DNA of 64,000 bases from Dactylosporangium siamense (GTDB taxonomy: Bacteria; Actinomycetota; Actinomycetes; Mycobacteriales; Micromonosporaceae). The first letter of the stretch is position 1, and each line of letters opens with the position of its first letter. This document shows positions 7,088-26,393 of this stretch, piece after piece. The stretch is taken from positions 1 to 64,000 of the forward strand of contig NZ_BONQ01000057.1 in the NCBI RefSeq assembly GCF_016862795.1, read 5' to 3'. Position numbers and translations under genes: made by a program. The notes below the pieces were generated by a model. It was not told the origin of the DNA. It searched no databases and saw only the letters and a program-made list of their open reading frames with translations.

Positions 7088-9115
7088 ATGATTCTCCGCA
7101 GAGTGCTCGGCGTCGCCACGGTCACGGCGGCGCTGCTCGCCCTGGCACACGCCCCGCAGAGCCAGGCCGCCGACACCGCCTACGACGTGCTGGTGTTCTC
7201 CAAGACGGCGGGCTTCCGCCACGACGCGATCCCCGCCGGCATCCAGGCGATCCGCGACCTGGGCGCCGCCAACAACTTCACCGTCACCGCGACCGAGGAC
7301 GCCAACGCGTTCACCACCGCCAACCTCGCCCAGTACGAGGCGGTCGTGTTCCTCAACACCACCGGCGACGTGCTCAACGCCGCCCAGGAGACCGCTTTCG
7401 AGTCCTACATCCGTGGTGGCGGCGGCTACGCCGGCGTGCACGCGGCGGCGGACACCGAGTACGGCTGGTCGTTCTACGGCACGCTGGTCGGTGCGTACTT
7501 CGCGTCGCACCCGGCGATCCAGCAGGTGAACGTCCGCGTCGAGAACCGCGCGCACGCGGCGACCGCGCACCTGCCGCAGGTCTGGACCCGCACCGACGAG
7601 CTGTACAACTACCAGACCAACCCGCGCTCGACCGCCCGCGTCCTGGCGAACCTGGACGAGAGCTCGTACTCGGGCGGAACCATGGGCGCGGACCACCCGA
7701 TCACCTGGTGCAAGACCATCGACAGTGGACGGTCGTTCTACACCGGACTCGGGCACACCATCGCCTCCTACACCGAGGCGAACTTCCGCAACCAGCTCCT
7801 CGGCGGCATCCGGTACGCGGCCGGCAAGACGAAGGCCGACTGCCGCCCGGAGACCGGATACACCACGCTGTACAACGGCGCGACGACCGGCTGGTCCCAG
7901 GCCGGCCCGGGCAGCTTCACCAACAGCGACGCCACCCTGACCTCCGTCGGCGGCCTGGGCCTGCTGTGGTACTCGGCGAAGGAGTTCCGCGCGTACTCGC
8001 TGAAGCTCGACTGGCGGATGCCCGGCGACGACAACTCCGGCATCTTCGTCGGCTTCCCGGCCAGCACCGACCCGAACTCGGCGATCAACAACGGATACGA
8101 GATCCAGATCGACGCCACCGACACCGACGACCGGACCACCGGGTCGATCTACGGCTTCAAGTCCGCCGACCTCGCCGCGCGCAACGCCGCCCTGAACCCG
8201 CCCGGCGAGTGGAACACCTACGAGATCCTCGTCGAGGGGGAGCGGCTGCGCGTGTACCTCAACGGCCGGCTCATCAACGACTTCACCAACACCGTGCCGG
8301 CGCGTTCGCTGGTGCAGGGGTACATCGGCATCCAGAACCACGGCACGGGCGACGACGTGTCGTTCCGCAACGTCCGCATCAAGGAGCTGCCGGGCGGGGA
8401 CACCACGCCGCCGACGGTGCCGGGCAACAACCGGGTGACCGCGACGACGTCCAGCAGCATCGCGCTGGCCTGGAACGCCTCGACCGACAACGTCGGGGTC
8501 AGCGGCTACGACGTGTTCCGGGAGAACGGCGCGACCGACGTCCTGGTCGGCTCGCCGACCGGCACCACCTTCACGGTCGGCGGCCTGGCCGCGGGCACCG
8601 GCTACACGTTCTACGTCGTGGCCAGGGACGCGGCCGGCAACCGCTCCGGCGCCTCGAACGCGGTGACCGCGACGACCACCGGCGCGCCGCCGTCGAACCT
8701 GGCGCTGAACAAGACCGCGACCGCGGACAGCCAGTGCGCGGCGTCGGAGGCGCCGGCGAAGGCCGTGAACGGGACGGTCAACGGCGGTAACGCCGACAAG
8801 TGGTGTTCGGTAGGTGCGTCGAAGTGGTGGCAGGTCGACCTGGGCTCCAGCCAGTCGGTCAGCCGGGTCGTGATCCGGCACGCCGGGGCGGGTGGGGAGA
8901 ACGCGGCGTGGAACACGCGTGACTTCGACATCCAGGTGAGCACCAACGGCACCACGTGGACGACGGTCTCCTCGCCGCGGGGGAACACGGCCAACGTCAG
9001 CACGCACACGTTCGCCGCGACGAACGCCCGCTACCTGCGGCTGAACGTGATCACACCGACCAGCAACACCGACGCCGCCGCCCGCATCTACGAGTTCGAG
9101 GCCTACGCCAGCTGA
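7088..9115 (+). CDS. Secreted ThuA / 3-keto-disaccharide hydrolase / FN3 / F5-8C protein
   Basis: The 675-residue product has a signal peptide (about 1-28, ending SQA). Domain order is ThuA-like class-I glutamine amidotransferase fold (30-255, YDVLVFSKTAGFRHD, GGGGYAGVHAAADTEY), a DUF1080-type domain now named 3-keto-disaccharide hydrolase (257-435, FTNSDATLTS, DWRMPGDDNSGIFVGF), fibronectin type III (440-530) and F5/8C (535-675). The family names suggest release or conversion of oxidised (3-keto) glycosides outside the cell, which suits the upstream sugar dehydrogenase. GAAGGGAA precedes the ATG. The ThuA part is a close paralogue of the gene at 60756. Catalysis by either enzyme domain is inferred, not shown. 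Confidence 0.82.
   Translation: MILRRVLGVATVTAALLALAHAPQSQAADTAYDVLVFSKTAGFRHDAIPAGIQAIRDLGAANNFTVTATEDANAFTTANLAQYEAVVFLNTTGDVLNAAQETAFESYIRGGGGYAGVHAAADTEYGWSFYGTLVGAYFASHPAIQQVNVRVENRAHAATAHLPQVWTRTDELYNYQTNPRSTARVLANLDESSYSGGTMGADHPITWCKTIDSGRSFYTGLGHTIASYTEANFRNQLLGGIRYAAGKTKADCRPETGYTTLYNGATTGWSQAGPGSFTNSDATLTSVGGLGLLWYSAKEFRAYSLKLDWRMPGDDNSGIFVGFPASTDPNSAINNGYEIQIDATDTDDRTTGSIYGFKSADLAARNAALNPPGEWNTYEILVEGERLRVYLNGRLINDFTNTVPARSLVQGYIGIQNHGTGDDVSFRNVRIKELPGGDTTPPTVPGNNRVTATTSSSIALAWNASTDNVGVSGYDVFRENGATDVLVGSPTGTTFTVGGLAAGTGYTFYVVARDAAGNRSGASNAVTATTTGAPPSNLALNKTATADSQCAASEAPAKAVNGTVNGGNADKWCSVGASKWWQVDLGSSQSVSRVVIRHAGAGGENAAWNTRDFDIQVSTNGTTWTTVSSPRGNTANVSTHTFAATNARYLRLNVITPTSNTDAAARIYEFEAYAS
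8686..9115 (+). repeat. 430-bp direct repeat, copy 2 (F5/8C-encoding)
   Basis: Second copy of the segment at 6581-7010, in the same orientation and also ending at a stop codon. It is diverged mostly at silent positions. Recombination between the copies would remove about 2.1 kb and leave the first protein's C-terminus intact. Confidence 0.9.
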
Positions 9116-16932: not shown

Positions 16933-17284
16933 TCCCGGCTCGCCACCCCCGCCGACGTCGCCATGTATGCCGCGGCCAGCCGCGGCCAGCCGCGGCCTGA
17001 CCCCGGTCGATGGTGGCCACCGGGTATTGACTGGCGGGTAACAACCTGATTGAGTCCCCGTCATCAATATCGACACCCGCGAAATCGGCGCGGGTTCACA
17101 CGGGGAGAGTCATTGATGAGGTTCCACGCGTAGCGGCGCGTTCAAGCCCGCCTGATCGCCTTTCGTAGCACCGCGCGCCCTGCGTGCGGTGCTCGCATCC
17201 GCGTGCGCTTTCCGCGTGCGATGCCGTTCTCCGACCGCTGTGACAGCGGTGCCTTTGTGCTGCCCTCAATTGACTGGAATAACT
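16933..17284. other. Intergenic region before the polymorphic toxin gene
   Basis: About 350 bp with no credible gene. It contains a short direct repeat (CGCGGCCAGC, twice, 16973-16992) and presumably the toxin-gene promoter, but no convincing -35/-10 pair was found. Confidence 0.4.
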
Positions 17285-20200
17285 GTGAAACTGCTGCTGA
17301 GATTGTTGTCGGCCGGCGCCTGGACGCGCCGGGCGCTGATCGCGGTCGTGCTGGTGGCGCTGGTCGCGTCGACGACCGTGCGCGCGGTGCCGGCGCCGGA
17401 CGTGCCGCCGATGACCGCCACGTCGGGGACGGGCGCGCCGCCCGGGATGCCGGACGTGGACTGGCCGTTGTGGCCGGAGTGGAGCGTCTGGGACGGCTTC
17501 TCCAACTACGGCTACACGAACCGGCACACCAGCTTCAACGACTGGACGCCGAGCTCGCAGGACGGCGCGCAGGCCCGGGAGGACCGCTGCCGGGTCGGCA
17601 ACGTGCTGCACCAGGGCGGCCCGAACGTGCGGGCGTTGGCGGCGCAGTCCCTGGCCGGCACGGACGCGCAGCGGCGGGCGGCGCTGGCCGGCGGCAGTGC
17701 GTTCGAGTCGCCGCTGGGGGTGGCGGCGCAGCAGGACTGGGATGCGTCGCCGCCGCCGTCGGGGTTCGAGACGCAGCAGCAGGACCGGTGGCTGTCGGAG
17801 ATCAACCCGATCAGCTACCAGGTTGACGTGCCCGGCTTCGACGACACGTTCCGGGCCTTCATCCGCGCCAGCGACCAGCGCACGTACGACGCGCTGAACG
17901 CCGACGTGGTGCCGCGCGCGGGGCAGGCGGCGAAGGACCGGGTGACCGGGCTGGTCGCGGAGCAGGCGCAGTCGGATCCGTACCTCGTGGCGTTCCGGGC
18001 GTTCGAGGAGGAGTTGTCGGCGCTGTTCGGCGGCGGCGACATCGTGCCCCTGACGGACATCGCCAACGGCATGTCGGCCGACGACGCGCGCCTCTACCTC
18101 CAGTACGGCGGGTTCGCCAAGTCGGCGCCGACGCCGGGTTCGCAGGAGTTCCGCCTCGAGGTCGAGGCGATGAAGATCCGCTGGGCGAACTGCGACTTCA
18201 ACAACCCCGCCGACCCGTACCGGGTGCTGACCGGCATCGTGTCGGCGGCGCAGGCGGAGTGGCAGGCCGAGCTGGCCGGGCAGAAGCCGCAGCGGGACGC
18301 GATCGTGGCGGCCGAGGCGCAGGCGTGGAAGGACCTGTGGACCGCGTCGTACGCGATGGTCGAGGCGGTCGGGCAGGCATGGGTCGCGGAGAAGCTGCTG
18401 GCCTACCAGAAGGACATGGGCCCGGGCTGGACGCCGACGGCGAAGTTCAACACCACGCTGCAGCTGACCCGCACCACGATCGCGCAGCAGCTCACGATCG
18501 CGCAGCAGGCGGCCACGTCGGCGCACACCCAGGTCACCGCGGTCGACGCGGCGCAGGCGCAGGCCGCCCAGGTCGCCGCCGCGGGAAACCTGCCGCGGGG
18601 CCGGGGCCTGGCGTACGCGCTGCAGTCGGCACAGGTGACGAAGGCGTCCTCGGCCGCGGTCGACGCGACCGTCGCGGCGATCAACACCGCGGTGCAGACG
18701 TCGAACGCGACCGCCGCGACCAGCGAGGCGATGTTCCAGCGGGCGTGCGCGGAGATGAACGCCGTGCAGGCCTACTACCAGCGGGCCGCCGCGCAGGAGG
18801 CGGCCGCGCAGGCGCACGCCGCCGCCCTCGCCGCGCAGGCGCAGGCCGACCAGGCGGCGCAGCACGCGACGACGGCGAAGGCCGCCCGGGCCACCGCCGA
18901 GCAGCAGGAACTGGTCGCGAAGAACGCCGCCGCCGACGCGCACGCCAAGCGGCTCGTCGCCGAGGCCGAGCGGCAGAACGCCGCGCACTTCCGCGCCGTC
19001 GCCGACAGCGAGCGGGCCAAGGCCGCCGCGGCCGAGGCCACCGCGCAGCAGCAGCGGGCGATCGCCGAGTCCAAGCGCGACGACGCCGACGACTCCGCCG
19101 GCACCGCGGCCCAGAAACGCACCGAAGCCGAGGCCGCCGAGAGCAGGGCGGTGACGGCCCGGACGGACGCGGTCAACGCCGAACAGCGCCGGGACGCGCT
19201 CACCGCCAGGGCGGAGGCCGCCGAGGCCCGGGCCGCGGCGGCGGAAGGCAGCGAGGATGCGGTCGAGGCGCGGAACGCGGCGACTGCCGCCCGCGCCGCC
19301 GCAGACGAGGCCACCACGGCCGCGCAGAACGCCCGCGACGCGGCCACCGCGGCGACCTCCGCGGCCACCGCGGCGCGTGCGGCCGCGACCGAGGCCGACG
19401 CCGCGGCGTCCCGGGCCGAGGCGGCCGCCCGCGCGGCCCAGGCCGCCCTCGACGAGGCCACCGCGGCGGCGGCCAAGGCCCACTCGGCGGCCGCCGACGC
19501 GATCGCGGCGGCGAACCTGGCCGCGGCCAACGTGGAGGAGGCCGAGCGGCAGGCCACCCTGGCCCTCGCCCTGGCCGCGCAGGCCAGCGCGAACACCGTC
19601 GCCGCCCGCGCGGCCGCGGACGCGGCACGGGTCGACAGCAGCAAGGCGGTCGGCGCGGCGTATGCCTCGCTGCAGTCCGCCTTCGCCGCCCGCGACGCCG
19701 CGCTACTCGTCGCCGCGCCCGCTGACGACGCGATCACCCTGGGCGCGCCGTACCAGCAGATCGACTCCTCCGCAGGCATGGCGGTCCTCGTCGGGCAGGC
19801 CGCGAAGACGCTCGCCGAACAGCAGGCGGCCGTCGCGCAGGTCCGCGCCGACGAGGCGGCCGAAGCGGCCGAGGCGGCCCAGGCCGCCGCGGACCGGGCC
19901 GAGGCGGACGTCAAGCTCTCCGCGGAGGCCGCCGCGGCCGCCGCCGTCGACGCTGTCGCGGCCGCCCAGTCGCTGCAACAGGCCCGGATCTCCGCCGCCG
20001 CCGCGGCCACCGACGCCGCGGCCGCGGCGCAGGCGGACGCCAACGCCGCGCAGTACAAGGCGCAGGCGGTGCAGGACTCGGCCGCGGCCGACCTCGCGGC
20101 CAACGCCGCCCGCGCCGACGCGGACGCCGCCCTGGCCGCCGCCTCGGCCGCCGAACGCGACGCCGCCGCGGCCCGCCTGGCGGCCGACGCGGCCGAGTAC

Positions 20201-21739
20201 GCCGCCGGTCAGGCCCGGGCCGCCGCCCAGCAGGCCGAGACCGACGCGACCGCCGCGGAACAGGCCGCCGCCAACGCGGCCGCCGCCGCGGCACAGGCCG
20301 AGAGCGCGGCCATGCTGGCCGAGATCGAGGCCGACAACAACGCGATGGCGGTCGCGGTCAGCGAAAACGGTCCGGCCGGCGAGGCGGGGCTGATGGTCGT
20401 GCCCAACATCACCGACAACGTCACCACCGACGGCGACTGCCAGATCCCCTACGACAACATCCACGTCTGCGACCTCAAGGTCGACCACCACATCACCGGC
20501 ACGCTGATCTATCTGGTACGGACCTGTCACAACCCCGGCGACACGATCTGCCCCGAGGCGTACACGATCGACTTCCTCCACGCCGAGCAGATCAACCAGC
20601 ACTATCCAGTGACGGAGCGCATTCAGCTGCAGCCAATCGAGGAGGCCCTGCTCAAGTCGCTCGCATACGGCATGATCAGCGACTTCGTCGGCTGCGCGCG
20701 AGGCAAGCTCAGTGACTGTGCCTGGGTCGCGGGCACGCTGCTCGCGCCCGCTGGCCTGAGCCTGGTCGCGCGGGGTGTCATCGCAGTTCGGATCGCGTTG
20801 CGCACCGGCGTTGGCGTCGGGGAGGCGCTGCTGGCGCTGCGCGGCACCGAGATCAGCCTGACCGCGCTGAGCCGGATCGAGCGGGAGGTCCAGGACATGC
20901 TGCGGGCCGGCTGTCCAGGCGGGGGGCATAGCTTCGACGGCCGGACGCCGGTGGTGATGGGCGACGGCAGTTGGCGGCCCATCAGCCGCGTCAAGATCGG
21001 CGATGCGGTCCGCAGCACCGATCCGGCGACCGGCCGCACCGTGGTTCGCAAGGTTACGCAGGTGTTCCGCAACTACGACACTGATCTGGTCGATGTCACC
21101 GTCCGGGGTCTGAGTGGCCCCGCCGTGCTGCACACCACCGCGGAGCACCGGTTCTGGGACGCAACCCGGCACGCGTGGGTCGGTGCGGGGTCGCTTCGCG
21201 TGGGCGACGCGCTGCACGCGCTGTATGGCACGCCGACATGGGTGATGGACGTCCGCCCGGTCCGCGGCGGTCAGGACATGTTCGACCTGACCGTCGCCGA
21301 GGCGCACAACTACTACGTGTCCGCCGGTGGAACTCCGGTGCTGGTGCACAACAGCAGCTGCCTCGATTACTACGGATTCTACGAGGGTGGGGTGGCGATC
21401 GCGGCGGACGTCGACGCGAATGGCGTGCTCAACACCGCGATCACCGCGGTCGAGGGCCGGCTGCCGACCGGCGGTCAGATGTTCGTGGACGCAGTGGAGG
21501 CGCTACGCCCTCACATCAGAGCCATCCGCGGTAACTGGCATTCGGAGAGTGGAACAATGTCTGACAACCTGGACAGCTTCAACGCCGGCATTCAGATCGG
21601 TCTCACCGCGGAGGAGGCAGCGTTGAACACCTTTACCGGCAAGATGGCCGCCCGGTACGGGTTCAAGAACGTCGTCATCGAATCGACCAAGGGTCCGCTC
21701 GGAGAGTGCACCGACGTGGTTGTGCGGTTCGTGCCGTGA
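17285..21739 (+). CDS. Giant secreted alanine-rich coiled-coil polymorphic toxin with Hint domain and C-terminal toxin
   Basis: The 1484-residue product starts MKLLLRLLSAGAWTRRALIA with a signal peptide or anchor. Residues 60-400 are a Trp-rich domain. Roughly 420-1020 is an Ala/Glu/Arg coiled coil of hundreds of residues. A spacer with paired Cys follows (1040-1200). Residues 1210-1356 are a Hint (Hedgehog/intein-type) autoprocessing domain: CPGGGHSFDGRTPVVMGDG, block with TTAEHRFW (His1288), ending NYYVSAGGTPVLVHN. The last 128 residues (from Ser1357) form a separate module ending ECTDVVVRFVP, the expected toxin position. The usual Cys directly before the SF of Hint is replaced by GH; Cys1210 is the nearest. 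The start is a GTG with a weak site. The stop overlaps the next gene by 4 bp, typical of toxin-immunity pairs. The toxin activity is not recognised. Confidence 0.82.
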   Translation: MKLLLRLLSAGAWTRRALIAVVLVALVASTTVRAVPAPDVPPMTATSGTGAPPGMPDVDWPLWPEWSVWDGFSNYGYTNRHTSFNDWTPSSQDGAQAREDRCRVGNVLHQGGPNVRALAAQSLAGTDAQRRAALAGGSAFESPLGVAAQQDWDASPPPSGFETQQQDRWLSEINPISYQVDVPGFDDTFRAFIRASDQRTYDALNADVVPRAGQAAKDRVTGLVAEQAQSDPYLVAFRAFEEELSALFGGGDIVPLTDIANGMSADDARLYLQYGGFAKSAPTPGSQEFRLEVEAMKIRWANCDFNNPADPYRVLTGIVSAAQAEWQAELAGQKPQRDAIVAAEAQAWKDLWTASYAMVEAVGQAWVAEKLLAYQKDMGPGWTPTAKFNTTLQLTRTTIAQQLTIAQQAATSAHTQVTAVDAAQAQAAQVAAAGNLPRGRGLAYALQSAQVTKASSAAVDATVAAINTAVQTSNATAATSEAMFQRACAEMNAVQAYYQRAAAQEAAAQAHAAALAAQAQADQAAQHATTAKAARATAEQQELVAKNAAADAHAKRLVAEAERQNAAHFRAVADSERAKAAAAEATAQQQRAIAESKRDDADDSAGTAAQKRTEAEAAESRAVTARTDAVNAEQRRDALTARAEAAEARAAAAEGSEDAVEARNAATAARAAADEATTAAQNARDAATAATSAATAARAAATEADAAASRAEAAARAAQAALDEATAAAAKAHSAAADAIAAANLAAANVEEAERQATLALALAAQASANTVAARAAADAARVDSSKAVGAAYASLQSAFAARDAALLVAAPADDAITLGAPYQQIDSSAGMAVLVGQAAKTLAEQQAAVAQVRADEAAEAAEAAQAAADRAEADVKLSAEAAAAAAVDAVAAAQSLQQARISAAAAATDAAAAAQADANAAQYKAQAVQDSAAADLAANAARADADAALAAASAAERDAAAARLAADAAEYAAGQARAAAQQAETDATAAEQAAANAAAAAAQAESAAMLAEIEADNNAMAVAVSENGPAGEAGLMVVPNITDNVTTDGDCQIPYDNIHVCDLKVDHHITGTLIYLVRTCHNPGDTICPEAYTIDFLHAEQINQHYPVTERIQLQPIEEALLKSLAYGMISDFVGCARGKLSDCAWVAGTLLAPAGLSLVARGVIAVRIALRTGVGVGEALLALRGTEISLTALSRIEREVQDMLRAGCPGGGHSFDGRTPVVMGDGSWRPISRVKIGDAVRSTDPATGRTVVRKVTQVFRNYDTDLVDVTVRGLSGPAVLHTTAEHRFWDATRHAWVGAGSLRVGDALHALYGTPTWVMDVRPVRGGQDMFDLTVAEAHNYYVSAGGTPVLVHNSSCLDYYGFYEGGVAIAADVDANGVLNTAITAVEGRLPTGGQMFVDAVEALRPHIRAIRGNWHSESGTMSDNLDSFNAGIQIGLTAEEAALNTFTGKMAARYGFKNVVIESTKGPLGECTDVVVRFVP

Positions 21740-22155
21740 GCGCGCTGGTGCTCTCCGCCGACCAGCGCTGGCCAGCCGACCCGGCGTTGGCCGAACGAGT
21801 GGTCGAACTCCTCGGCTCGTGGGTGTCTGACCCGCTGACGCGTGGTTGGCTGGCGGCTGGCGGCGATGCGGGAGACCTGCGTGGACTGCCCGCGACCGGA
21901 CGCCGGGAGACGTTGACGGCGCTCCGGGACCGGGTGGGCCCTGCCCTGGCCCTGCCGCCGGATGCCGCGGCGGCGCTGCGCAGGGCGGCGGCCGCGGTGC
22001 TGGCCCAGGACGACGAGATCGACGACTGGATCCGCGCGGGTCACCCCGTACGGGCGATCAAGGCGATTCGGGAGCAGCTTGCCTGCGGCATTCAACGCGC
22101 CACCGATGAATATCATCATCGCGCCGCGCCGCTGCTCCGACCGGACGAGGACTGA
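21736..22155 (+). CDS. Putative immunity protein for the Hint toxin
   Basis: The GTG at 21736 overlaps the toxin stop codon (GTGA), so it is translationally coupled. The 139-residue product has no signal peptide or membrane segment and should be cytosolic, as expected for immunity against a returned or incoming toxin. The C-terminal part, DDWIRAGHPVRAIKAIREQL then ATDEY, resembles in pattern the helix-turn-helix of ribosomal protein L7/L12 C-terminal domains (Gly, Ala-Ile-Lys, Arg-Glu). The immunity role is inferred from position, overlap and size. A strong hairpin ends the operon 20 bp downstream. Confidence 0.65.
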   Translation: MSALVLSADQRWPADPALAERVVELLGSWVSDPLTRGWLAAGGDAGDLRGLPATGRRETLTALRDRVGPALALPPDAAAALRRAAAAVLAQDDEIDDWIRAGHPVRAIKAIREQLACGIQRATDEYHHRAAPLLRPDED

Positions 22156-22501
22156 CCGGTCGCAGCGGGCTTCTGACGGTGACCCCGTGACCATGCGGGG
22201 TCACCGTCTCCGGCTCCCGGAGCGTCTTCGAGGGCTTGAACGCGTTTGCCTGCTGGATTCGCTCGTTCTCGGCTTCGTAGGCGAGAACAGCGATTCGGAT
22301 GCGTTCGGCCAGCCACAGCTGCCGTAGGAGGCCAGTGGGCAGACCGTGCATCTGCGACCACAGAGCGGTCCATGCTGCGGCGTTATGAGCCCTGGCCTCG
22401 GCTTCAACCGTTGTGTCAAAGGCGTCCGAATGTGCTACGGAGTCGCAGGGAGTGGTCGCGGAAGGTTCGGAGTCAGCCACCGCTGTCGTCGAGTTCGGCA
22501 C
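22058..22501 (-). CDS. Hypothetical protein, doubtful
   Basis: A 147-residue frame whose middle (AAWTALWSQMHGLPTG, LAERIRIAVLAYEAENERI) looks like a real helical protein. It begins at a GTG inside the last codons of the truncated dus copy. Its C-terminus runs through the terminator hairpin and overlaps the immunity gene on the other strand by about 100 bp, which argues against the full length being real. It could be the remains of a small gene brought in with the dus copy. No family is recognised. Confidence 0.35.
   Translation of the reverse strand: MPNSTTAVADSEPSATTPCDSVAHSDAFDTTVEAEARAHNAAAWTALWSQMHGLPTGLLRQLWLAERIRIAVLAYEAENERIQQANAFKPSKTLREPETVTPHGHGVTVRSPLRPVSPRPVGAAARRDDDIHRWRVECRRQAAPESP
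22175..22208. terminator. Hairpin terminator closing the toxin-immunity operon
   Basis: A perfect 13-bp stem (22175-22187 with 22196-22208) with an 8-nt loop lies 20 bp after the immunity gene. It also lies inside the opposing hypothetical frame at 22058-22501. Confidence 0.75.
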
Positions 22502-23303
22502 CTTCGGGGATGGTGTCGTCGTCTCGGTTGTCGAGCCAGTTCTGGGGGAGGACGACCTTGGCAGGGGTGCCGGTGCGGCCGCGGGGCTGGCCGAGGATCT
22601 CCTTCGGGAACGGCACTGATGGGTCGAGCTGGGAGAGGAGGTCGCCGAGTTCGGCCAGGGATGACGAGGTGGCCATGGCGGCGCGGAGTTCGCCGCCGGC
22701 GGGGAAGCCCTTGAGGTACCAGGCGACGTGCTTGCGGAAGTCCGTCACGCCTTCCTTTTCCCTGCCCCACCATTCGACGAGCAGCGTCGCGTGGCGCAGC
22801 ATCAGGGCCGCGACTTCGCCCTGAGTGGGAAGGACCCGGTCGGTGCGTCCCGCGAAGGCGGCGGCCAGATCCGCGAAGAGCCATGGGCGGCCGAGGCAGC
22901 CCCGGCCGATGACCACGCCGTCGCAGCCGGTCTGCGCCATCATGTCCAGGGCGTCCGAGGCTTCCCAGATGTCGCCGTTGCCGAGGACCGGAATGTCCAG
23001 AGCGGCCTTCAGTGAAGCGATCGCGTCCCACGAAGCGGTGCCTGAATAGCGCTGGGCGGCGGTGCGGGCGTGCAAGGCGACCCACGCCACGCCGGCGTCC
23101 TGGGCGATGCGGCCGGCGTCGAGCATCGTCGTGTGCGAGTCGTCGATGCCGATGCGCATCTTGATGGTCACCGGCAAGCCGGAAGCGCCCTCGACGGCGG
23201 AGCGAACGATGTCGCCGAAAAGCTTGCGTTTCCACGGCAGGGCCGAGCCGCCGCCGCGCCTGGTGACCTTGGGCACGGAGCATCCGAACTTTGCGATGTA
23301 GCG
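22473..23303 (-). pseudogene. Truncated copy of a dus (tRNA-dihydrouridine synthase) gene
   Basis: The frame reads FGCSVPKVTRRGGG to EGAELDDSGG and matches residues 101-371 of the intact dus gene at 25243-26358 with only scattered changes. The first 100 residues, which hold the N-terminal TIM-barrel strands and the PMAGITN motif, are missing. Upstream of the break the sequence is unrelated (MSSRYIAK), so a working enzyme is unlikely. The break lies about 40 bp from the toxin-antitoxin promoter. The copy may result from a duplication or an insertion event at dus. Confidence 0.85.
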
Positions 23304-23376: not shown

Positions 23377-23753
23377 GTGGCGTGGACGATCGTGGTGGTT
23401 GAGCCGGTGCGGTCCTGGCTGCATGATCTGCGACATTCCGATCGGCGCACCTTGGCTCTGATCAGCGCGGCGGTTGATGCGCTCGCGGTGGAAGGGCCGG
23501 CGTTGGGCGGCCACTGGTAGACACGGTGCGGGGCTCGAAGCTGGCGAACCTCAAGGAGTTGCGACCCGGCTCGGCCGGCGCGAGCGAAGTGCGGTTGTTG
23601 TTCGTGTTCGATCCGGTCCGGCAGGCGGTGCTGCTCGTCGGCGGCGACAAGGCAGGCAACTGGCAGGGTTGGTACAGAACCGCGATACCGATTGCTGAGG
23701 CGGCATATGCCGAGCATCTGCAGCGGCTGCAAGAGAAGGACGGTGAGCAGTGA
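23377..23753 (+). pseudogene. RelE/HigB-family toxin gene, frameshifted
   Basis: From GTG 23377 (CGGAGG upstream) the frame reads VAWTIVVVEPVRSWLHDLRH to EGPALGGHW and stops at 23518. The +1 frame then continues VDTVRGSKLANLKELRPGS and LLFVFDPVRQAVLLVGGDKA to the antitoxin start. Inserting one C near 23505 would restore LGRPLVDTVRGSKL, the usual family sequence of about 125 residues. So one base is lost, or a sequencing error is present. The toxin would be a ribosome-dependent mRNA interferase. The antitoxin downstream is intact, as expected when a toxin decays. Confidence 0.8.
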
Positions 23754-24088
23754 TGGACCACCTCAAGGACCCGCAAGCCATCTCCTGGGACGACATGAAG
23801 ACCGAACTCGGTTTCACTGATGCCGAACGTCAGGAGATCCAGGCCGGCGCTCAAGAACTGATCGCGCAGGCGCGTGCCTACCGCCTTGCCGAGGTTCGCC
23901 GCCGCCAGCATGCCACGCAGACCGACATCGCCAAGGTGATGGGCGTGACACAGGCGCGCGTGTCCCGGATCGAGAAGGGCGAGATCTCACGCAGCGAGGT
24001 CGACACCCTCGCCGCCTACGTCCAGGCCCTCGGCGGAAAGTTGAAGATCATTGCTGACTTCGGCGACGAGTCGTACGTACTGGGCTGA
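23753..24088 (+). CDS. HigA-type antitoxin, XRE-family DNA-binding protein
   Basis: The 111-residue protein overlaps the toxin stop (TGATG; a GTG at 23750 is an alternative start). An N-terminal toxin-binding region (DDMKTELGFTDAERQEI) is followed by a Cro/CI helix-turn-helix (TQTDIAKVMGVTQARVSRIE, about residues 60-80). It should neutralise the toxin and repress the operon from the inverted repeat at 23340. With the toxin frameshifted it may now act only as a repressor or protect against related toxins. It belongs to the dus-flanked segment. Confidence 0.85.
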   Translation: MDHLKDPQAISWDDMKTELGFTDAERQEIQAGAQELIAQARAYRLAEVRRRQHATQTDIAKVMGVTQARVSRIEKGEISRSEVDTLAAYVQALGGKLKIIADFGDESYVLG

Positions 24089-24161
24089 AACCGTCAGTGG
24101 TCCGGCTGAAGGATCAAGCTACATTCCGGCCGAACCGGGGTAATCGTCATGGGTTGGTGTC

Positions 24162-25184
24162 ATGAGAACTTGCTCTTCTGGGTGCGGACGGCCTTGCGCT
24201 AACGGCAAAGGGAAACCCGGTCGGTGCGTTCAATGCATTGACGTGGTCTACAACAGCCTACGATTGCAGCCTCTTGAGCCGTATCGTGACGCTCGGTATG
24301 AGCGAAAGTGTCGATGCATCGGATGCCTGCAGGAGGTGAGGGTCGCCTACCATGATATTCGCAATCGCCCTGCAAATGGCATCGTTGCATGTGACCTGTG
24401 CAATCTCGCTGAAATGGCAAGGGAGGCGCGGCAGGCCGGTCGCTTCCCTTCTCTCGATTCTCGCCAAGTCTGGAGCATGCTGACGGCAAGAGGGCTGATT
24501 CCACTGGCTCGGTTTTCCTTCGAGAACCATAATGCGCCGGGCTTCGGCACTGGTGTCGAAGTAATCCGAGCATTCTGCGTGATGTGCGAATCCATTGAGC
24601 ACACCACCCTTCAGTTGGTGGATGACCTGGTGCGTAGAGGTCGGAATCCGTGCCGTAACTGCTCGCAGAGAGTATTCAACGGATGGTCGCAGCGGCGAGC
24701 TACTCAAGTGTTCGCGCAGCATGGCCTGGAGTATCTGTCAGGCGACATGAGGATGACCGACCCTGCGGAATCGAGATGCTTGCGGTGTGGGGACGAGCGG
24801 CGTCTGTCGTTGAGTGCACTTCTCGGTGGAGCGCCGGCATGTTTGCGCTGCGACGGAGGTGCAGATCTCGCCGGACCGCACGTCGTTTACCTGATCTTCT
24901 TTCCTGCTTTGTCGCTGTACAAGGTCGGTATCACGCATTCGCAGGACAGCCGGCGAATATCAGATCACCTGCGCAACGGAGCCGAGGTGATCTCGATGGT
25001 GGCCGTCAAGGACCGCCTTGCTGCTTTTCGAGTTGAGCGGGCTGTTCTCGTGACGACTGCTGCCTTCCGGCCGACCGACTCGGTGAAACCTCACTTTGCA
25101 TACGGAGGGTGGACCGAGACGTGGACCAGCGATGCGCCTGCGGTCGATCTGCACAGCGTTGCGGCTGCGGTCCTGCGGAATTGA
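24162..25184 (+). CDS. Zinc-cluster protein with C-terminal GIY-YIG-like domain
   Basis: The 340-residue protein has repeated Cys pairs (CRCIGC, CDLC, CVMC, CRNC, CLRC twice), pointing to several small zinc-binding units in residues 1-235. Residues 243-300 (GPHVVYLIFFPALSLYKVGI, then RRISDHLRNGAEVI) follow the GIY-YIG/T5orf172 nuclease pattern with Tyr-Lys-Val-Gly-Ile and an Arg-Arg-Ile. Its base composition is visibly lower in G+C than its neighbours and its codons are less biased, so it was probably acquired. It lies between the toxin-antitoxin pair and the intact dus gene. A DNA-targeting or defence role is plausible but not shown. The start has a weak ribosome site. Confidence 0.6.
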   Translation: MRTCSSGCGRPCANGKGKPGRCVQCIDVVYNSLRLQPLEPYRDARYERKCRCIGCLQEVRVAYHDIRNRPANGIVACDLCNLAEMAREARQAGRFPSLDSRQVWSMLTARGLIPLARFSFENHNAPGFGTGVEVIRAFCVMCESIEHTTLQLVDDLVRRGRNPCRNCSQRVFNGWSQRRATQVFAQHGLEYLSGDMRMTDPAESRCLRCGDERRLSLSALLGGAPACLRCDGGADLAGPHVVYLIFFPALSLYKVGITHSQDSRRISDHLRNGAEVISMVAVKDRLAAFRVERAVLVTTAAFRPTDSVKPHFAYGGWTETWTSDAPAVDLHSVAAAVLRN

Positions 25185-25242
25185 GTCAAGCAGAAACTCA
25201 GACTTGTACGAAGCACCCGATAGCCTTGCGTCGGGTCGCTGA

Positions 25243-26358
25243 TCAGCCGCCGGAGTCGTCGAGTTCGGCGCCTTCGGGGACGGTGTCGTCGTCTCGGTCG
25301 TCGAGCCAGTTCTGCGGGAGGATGACCTTCGCGGGGGTGCCGGTGCGGCCTCGGGGTTGGCCGAGGATCTCGCGGGGGAACGGCACGTCCGGGTCGAGTT
25401 GTGACAGCAGCGCGCCGAGCTCGGCCAGGGATGAGCTGGTGGCCATGGCGGCGCGGAGTTCGCCGCCGGCGGGGAAGCCCTTGAGGTACCAGGCGACGTG
25501 TTTGCGGAAGTCGGTGACGCCTTCCTTTTCGCGGCCCCACCATTCGACGAGCAGGGTGGCGTGGCGGAGCATCAGGGCGGCGACCTCGCCCTGGGTCGGG
25601 AAGGCGCGGTCGGTGCGGCCGGCGAAGGCGGCGGCGAGGTCGGCGAAGAGCCAGGGTCGGCCGAGGCAGCCGCGGCCGATGACGACGCCGTCGCAGCCCG
25701 TCTGGGACATCATATCCAGCGCATCTGACGCTTCCCAGATGTCGCCGTTGCCGAGGACCGGGATGTCCAGAGCGGATTTCAGCGAAGCGATCGCGTCCCA
25801 CGAAGCCTCGCCCGAGTAGCGCTGGGCGGCGGTACGGGCGTGCAGGGCGACCCACGCCACGCCCGCGTCCTGGGCGATGCGGCCCGCGTCGAGCATGGTC
25901 TGGTGCTCGTCGTCGATGCCGATGCGCATCTTGATGGTGACCGGCAAACCGGCCGCGCCCTCAACGGCAGACCGCACGATGTCGCCGAAGAGCTTGCGCT
26001 TCCACGGCAGGGCGGAGCCGCCACCGCGGCGGGTCACCTTGGGGACGCTGCAGCCGAAGTTCATGTCGATGTGGTCGGCCAGGTCCTGCTCGACGATCAT
26101 CTCGACGGCCTTGCGGATGGTGGCGGGGTCGACGCCGTACAGCTGCAGGCTTCGTGGCCGTTCCAGGGCGCCGAACTGGATCATGCTCATGGTCTTGGGG
26201 TTGCGCTCGACCAGGGCGCGGGTCGTGATCATTTCGCAGACGTAGAGGCCGGCGCCCTGTTCGCGGCAGAGTTGCCGGAAGGCCACGTTGGTGATGCCCG
26301 CCATGGGGGCGAGGACCACGGGCGGGTCGACGGGGTAGGGGCCGAGGCGCAGCGTCAC
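25243..26358 (-). CDS. dus: tRNA-dihydrouridine synthase, DusB type
   Basis: The 371-residue flavoenzyme reduces uridines in tRNA. From a GTG at 26358 it reads MTLRLGPYPVDPPVVLAPMA, the standard start. It has the FMN site, Cys103 in MNFGCSVPKVTRRGGGSAL (the usual catalytic Cys position), and HARTAAQRYSG. The ribosome site is poor (GAGGGG directly before GTG). The open frame extends much further upstream, but that part is antisense to the aminotransferase and is ignored. It is the intact parent of the partial copies at 22473 and 12300. dus genes are known insertion points for mobile elements. Confidence 0.92.
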   Translation of the reverse strand: MTLRLGPYPVDPPVVLAPMAGITNVAFRQLCREQGAGLYVCEMITTRALVERNPKTMSMIQFGALERPRSLQLYGVDPATIRKAVEMIVEQDLADHIDMNFGCSVPKVTRRGGGSALPWKRKLFGDIVRSAVEGAAGLPVTIKMRIGIDDEHQTMLDAGRIAQDAGVAWVALHARTAAQRYSGEASWDAIASLKSALDIPVLGNGDIWEASDALDMMSQTGCDGVVIGRGCLGRPWLFADLAAAFAGRTDRAFPTQGEVAALMLRHATLLVEWWGREKEGVTDFRKHVAWYLKGFPAGGELRAAMATSSSLAELGALLSQLDPDVPFPREILGQPRGRTGTPAKVILPQNWLDDRDDDTVPEGAELDDSGG

Positions 26359-26393
26359 CCCTCGAGCATGGCACGGCGGCGCGGCGCGGCGGC

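Follow-up and report, generated by a model that had tools for sequence, protein, structure and literature searches.

A candidate homing-type gene of actinobacteria that joins a zinc-finger array to a GIY-YIG-type nuclease domain

The stretch of 64,000 nucleotides of Dactylosporangium siamense analysed here (the window) carries, between a toxin-antitoxin pair and the gene for tRNA-dihydrouridine synthase (dus), a gene of atypical composition for a cysteine-rich protein (Table 1). What kind of gene would settle in such a place, a nuclease kept against incoming DNA, a selfish mobile gene, or something less active? A sequence-only reading of the same DNA had described a zinc cluster followed by a GIY-YIG-like domain and suggested a mobile or anti-mobile nuclease. 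Its description of the open reading frame, with six or more CxxC pairs before the motifs YLIFF and YKVGIT, was confirmed. The product contains 18 cysteines and seven CxxC pairs, followed by a C-terminal domain with the GIY-YIG pattern, in which YLIFF occupies residues 243-247 and YKVGIT residues 253-258. Among 5000 shuffles of the same composition the mean number of CxxC pairs was 0.9 and the maximum 5, so that none reached seven. The low G+C content and the adjacent toxin-antitoxin pair were equally borne out. The gene has a G+C of 58.7% (GC3 0.62) in a neighbourhood of about 70%, to be compared with 70.2% (GC3 0.91) for dus, 63.4% (GC3 0.81) for higA and a GC3 of 0.94 in the next genes. The pair belongs to the Gp49-type HigB and Xre-type HigA families. 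The higB frame is split in this assembly, either genuinely or through a mistake in assembling the reads; a congener (G001) has an intact copy of 125 aa.

Table 1. Features of the insertion locus in the window (positions refer to the whole stretch).
Feature	Position	Strand	Details or evidence
dus 3' fragment, open frame	22473..23291	-	88% identical to intact copy; Pfam Dus E 8e-61
higB-type toxin (Gp49), frameshifted	23377..23753	+	PF05973 E 1.2e-10
higA-type antitoxin (Xre; HTH_37/HTH_3)	23750..24088	+	Pfam
Segment absent from congeners G001, G005	24093..25240	.	dus-higA spacer comparison
Predicted zinc-finger array + GIY-YIG (T5orf172-like) nuclease gene	24162..25184	+	340 aa
Putative N-terminal zinc knuckles (C4, C8, C12, C22, C25)	24171..24236	+	Cys positions, aligned Cys
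Putative zinc-finger unit 1 (C50/52/55 ... C77/C80)	24309..24401	+	alignment, model, Cys positions
Putative zinc-finger unit 2 (C139/C142 ... C164/C167)	24576..24662	+	alignment, model
Putative zinc-finger unit 3 (C206/C209 ... C227/C230)	24777..24851	+	alignment, model
Predicted GIY-YIG nuclease domain, aa 238-330	24873..25151	+	invariant residues, topology, Slx1/BH0048 matches
Intact dus (tRNA-dihydrouridine synthase)	25243..26361	-	3' 819 bp = 25243-26061

The two halves of the predicted protein

We have examined the protein through an alignment of 12 homologues and an AlphaFold (AF2) model (mean pLDDT 80, pTM 0.45). In the N-terminal half, C139, C142, C164, C206, C209 and C227 are invariant and C230 nearly so, and the model places three hairpin-plus-helix zinc units ahead of the nuclease core. 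No Pfam model matched these repeats, which occur as several tandem units in relatives on plasmids of Streptomyces and Embleya. In the C-terminal half, eight residues (Y243, K254, G256, R265, H269, E292, G316 and E319) are invariant. The first three fall into motif A, a tyrosine followed some 10 residues later by (Y/K)xG (Y243, then K254-V-G256), the arginine of motif B is R265, with H269 one turn further on, and E292 is the glutamate of motif D. The asparagine of motif E is absent from the family, which has the invariant G316 and E319 there (a G..TE motif); this motif reportedly varies or is missing in parts of the GIY-YIG superfamily (PMC1564403). The modelled core has the b-b-a-b-a topology (strands 240-247, 252-259 and 275-282, helices 264-271 and 285-298). 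Structure prediction, one of the checks proposed in the sequence-only reading, thus gives a nuclease fold behind zinc-finger units.

The profile searches gave a more divided picture. No GIY-YIG or T5orf172 model of Pfam matched the 340-aa protein as a single sequence and NCBIfam gave no match, while T5orf172 was the commonest Pfam match among the homologues (5 of 12, weak, best E 0.0012), so that the profile check suggested earlier gave nothing for the window protein and weak matches for some of its relatives. In PHROGs the protein matched phrog_681, annotated as 'endonuclease' (E 3e-7). In a sequence search with the family profile, the PDB yielded only chance-like matches to zinc proteins and no GIY-YIG chain, and Foldseek against the PDB found nothing at E <= 0.001, with the UPF0213 protein BH0048 as the top match; when residues 235-340 were looked at again, the GIY-YIG proteins Slx1 and UPF0213 BH0048 led at a modest Z of about 5. 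Among the viral models of BFVD, Foldseek found 159 matches at E <= 0.001 (best E 3e-13), and those over the full length were phage T5orf172, CapR-homology, treble-clef and putative 'Hef-like homing endonuclease' proteins. Sequence and model together indicate that the gene very probably encodes a nuclease of the GIY-YIG family with a zinc-finger DNA-binding part, predicted to bind zinc and to cleave DNA. The earlier assignment of a zinc cluster plus GIY-YIG was thus right: homologues, catalytic pattern and fold all reach GIY-YIG.

Three other actinobacterial proteins (L011-L013, about 600 aa) have an N-terminal module in common with the window family (hhalign 98.9%). They carry DUF4379 zinc units and a different C-terminus with an IEYDG..WH motif, in which no GIY-YIG domain was recognised and no Pfam nuclease matched; by eye, it looks Vsr-like. 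In phage group II introns, three to five CapR-like domains are followed by a Vsr-like nuclease (PMC12350094). These CapR-like proteins with Vsr/EDxHD nucleases and L011-L013 resemble the window family in placing a zinc-finger array before a nuclease-like C-terminus, but the C-terminal nuclease of the former is of another fold.

A single-gene insertion in a sporadic family

The spacer between dus and higA measures about 90-120 bp in two congeners (G001 and G005) and 1154 bp, with the nuclease gene, in the window. Since the site is empty in both congeners, the difference amounts to an insertion of about 1.1 kb carrying a single gene, and the sequence comparison argues strongly that the nuclease gene is a recent, horizontally mobile arrival, something we regard as highly probable. 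A comparable situation is found in Amycolatopsis, where a homologue (L056) lies between a gene for a metallo-beta-lactamase-type protein (MBL) and a VapBC-type module; in G721 and G722 MBL and VapBC are adjacent and the nuclease gene is absent, and G744 has neither the gene nor VapBC. For the Gordonia homologue beside rlmN (L054), the end of the island was not found, since over the length read the downstream DNA resembled none of the six relatives set beside it, and for the S. nanshensis homologue no close relative with a matching flank was found.

Relatives turned up at 13 loci in the scan of genomes. Their hosts are Streptomyces, Gordonia, Amycolatopsis, Lentzea, Geodermatophilus, Nocardioides and MAGs, among which one is labelled acidobacterial. 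Matches were sporadic, at about 2-3%: one of seven congeners had one, the count for the order was 7 of 298 genomes and that for the phylum 12 of 396, and some of these matches cover the zinc-finger part only. At the homologous loci, DNA similarity essentially stops at or near the ends of the gene; L053 and L063, for example, are 91% identical across 1.36 kb and share only short matches beyond. A housekeeping DNA-repair nuclease of the Slx1/UvrC kind, inherited vertically, would have the GIY-YIG fold that is common to Slx1, but it would hardly be missing from six of seven congeners and about 97% of the order, with empty sites and a deviant G+C. We have rejected this role, to which we give next to no chance, as the distribution across genomes refutes vertical inheritance. 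Homologues confined to vertical descent in housekeeping settings, the finding that the sequence-only reading had named as speaking against it, are not what the family presents. Of its two proposals, mobile or anti-mobile, the first is upheld by the empty site, the deviant G+C, the sporadic occurrence and the similarity confined to the gene, and the second draws on the neighbourhood only.

Frameshifts interrupt the gene at 4 of the 13 loci, and between pairs of homologues dN/dS is 0.15-0.30, a range that points to purifying selection. These figures bear on the idea that the gene is an inert or repurposed passenger, either a nuclease fold that now serves as a DNA-binding repressor, or cargo of the dus/HigBA insertion that has decayed in part. 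The non-conserved asparagine of motif E, the frameshift in the adjoining HigB and the broken relatives would suit such a passenger, but the reading frame is intact, all other catalytic positions are conserved and the relatives have evolved under purifying selection, which makes this explanation improbable.

Some homologues have features of their own. One carries a C-terminal BRCT domain (L057:1338-2771, Pfam E 1.5e-4), and another travels in a 9.6-kb integrative element with a tyrosine integrase (L055:195-9846), bounded by att-like direct repeats of 76 bp, one of them at tRNA-Lys. A third is flanked by a 93-bp direct repeat (80%; L051:5380-5471 and 7825-7916), one copy of which lies just upstream of mcrB. 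In the search for direct repeats around the other homologues, only L055 and L051 stood out.

Homing-type gene or defence nuclease

The explanation that we favour, with a probability of roughly 0.55, is a zinc-finger-guided GIY-YIG DNA endonuclease that lives in actinobacteria as a free-standing homing-type mobile gene. The three zinc-finger units and the N-terminal knuckles would grip the DNA and the C-terminal GIY-YIG (T5orf172-like) domain would cut it, in alleles not yet occupied, at a conserved site within or close to the adjoining conserved gene; during repair of the cut the gene would be copied in, a process of intronless homing. The genomic signs expected of homing are present (sporadic occurrence, nearness to conserved genes, empty sites, frameshifts), and a selfish role of this type appears slightly better than an even bet.

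The sequence-only reading knew of no named system with this layout. This is wrong for phages, in which N-terminal zinc-finger repeats joined to T5orf172 have been published (PMC10448857), in agreement with the fold search. In these phage T5orf172 homing endonucleases the terminus opposite the nuclease bears repeats of CapR, DUF723 or related zinc fingers, and their genes, frequently frameshifted, are found beside essential ones (PMC10448857). The window family resembles them in its N-terminal CxxC repeats and predicted C-terminal T5orf172-like GIY-YIG domain, in its sporadic occurrence beside conserved genes, in its frequent frameshifts and in the full-length structural matches. Unlike them, it resides in actinobacterial chromosomes and plasmids beside toxin-antitoxin and defence genes, its zinc-finger repeats escape Pfam, and tblastn against the collection of phage records found no relative. 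As the layout is already known in phages, the window family represents a bacterial branch of it that is new and carries no annotation. With it, a homing-endonuclease architecture centred on phages reaches actinobacterial chromosomes and plasmids, in combination with a zinc-finger repeat that goes unrecognised in profile libraries.

Two further systems share part of this design. Odn (ICP1 Gp88) combines RepA_N with T5orf172 and cuts a subviral parasite (PMC8263062); like the window protein it couples a T5orf172 nuclease to an exchangeable DNA-binding half, but this half is RepA_N and not zinc fingers, and its target is known. The Seg proteins of T4 are free-standing GIY-YIG endonucleases with intronless homing (PMC2988022). 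As in the window, a free-standing intergenic GIY-YIG gene lies beside a conserved gene, in a different host and with a different DNA-binding half, the target of the window protein being putative. A small nuclease with such a modular array of zinc fingers would have practical interest, provided that the specificity of the array can be read.

The main competitor is an interference nuclease, the same enzyme kept as cargo of defence islands for cutting incoming phage or plasmid DNA. The neighbours speak for it: McrB, McrC and a type I RM system at L051, an McrB-like AAA protein, DarT and a macro-domain (DarG-like) gene at L054, a sub-threshold Mrr_cat_2 match at L052, a DEAD/ResIII helicase at L059, RES, HNH and an integrase at L058, VapBC at L056 and HigBA in the window. 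Transposases are found at L062 and L063. These neighbours speak for a link of the homologues with defence or mobile islands and do not decide between defence and selfish cargo. Homing alone does not predict so many homologues in defence islands, which counts against it. Odn also provides a precedent, as a phage T5orf172 nuclease directed against a parasite. Against a dedicated defence role, the 340-aa protein matched none of the PADLOC models (PADLOC-DB 2.0.0, 0 families at E <= 1), there is no conserved partner, methylase or immunity gene, and the frequent frameshifts suit a selfish gene somewhat better. Since the layout of the phage T5orf172 homing endonucleases and the fold search both match, homing fits somewhat better than dedicated defence, which we consider possible but clearly less probable. 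The family also connects such nucleases with neighbourhoods of toxin-antitoxin and defence genes and with insertions that restore the adjoining gene.

The dus mosaic and the Amycolatopsis hotspot

The insertion in the window has a second layer. The last 819 bp of dus are duplicated past higBA, so that diverged halves flank the insert. The two copies differ by a dS of 0.45 at a dN/dS of 0.11, and this low ratio at such a distance indicates that both were functional coding sequence under purifying selection until recently, in different lineages. One of them was probably imported; a tree of the two copies did not identify the native one. The fragment begins at the codons N|FGCS, which we take to be the catalytic-cysteine motif of Dus enzymes. 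In G001, which lacks the nuclease gene, a decayed dus remnant lies at the same junction; the junction may thus be older than the nuclease or independent of it, and need not be its product.

A similar arrangement appears past the MBL gene of Amycolatopsis, an insertion hotspot (L091, L093, L094 and L096) with VapBC, HNH, DUF3800 and Hypoth_Ymh cargo. Four congeners there possess MBL 3' fragments whose upstream limit is at FTG|DSLF, the metal-ligand Asp motif of MBL, with a discrepancy of 5 nt there in three of the four; the cargo ahead of the fragment includes an HNH gene in G720, a DUF3800 gene in G731 and a Hypoth_Ymh gene plus VapBC in G745. Breakpoints at catalytic codons are thus seen at two loci (dus and MBL), too few to generalise, and the coincidence was spotted post hoc.

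A speculative and rather doubtful extension of these observations is that one-sided homing builds small bacterial islands. The zinc-finger nuclease would cut a conserved gene of the chromosome where a catalytic residue is encoded (N|FGCS in dus, FTG|DSLF in MBL); on one side, recombination with a donor would bring in a fresh 3' end together with the nuclease and a toxin-antitoxin module, and on the other, end-joining would leave behind a fragment, the former 3' end, beginning at the cut. If true, this would account for insertion hotspots that are free of integrases and restore the interrupted gene. The dus and MBL breakpoints are concrete candidate target sequences.

We have also searched the family for duplications of the dus 3' end; 148 of 151 genomes matched, with no other fragment duplication among the matches listed. 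A second dus place in G868, considered as a 3' duplication, was rejected, as it consists of two full dus genes. Another genome of the family has two complete dus genes separated by about 13 kb (L103:2992-17740); an Xre/AbiEii-like pair sits immediately downstream of one, a second toxin-antitoxin-type module at a dus 3' end. Elsewhere in the window, positions 17189-21739 encode an alanine-rich, coiled-coil-like protein of 1516 aa that ends in a pretoxin HINT domain (PT-HINT, E 3.8e-14). Together with the small open reading frame after it (21706-22155), it looks like a polymorphic-toxin-type locus.
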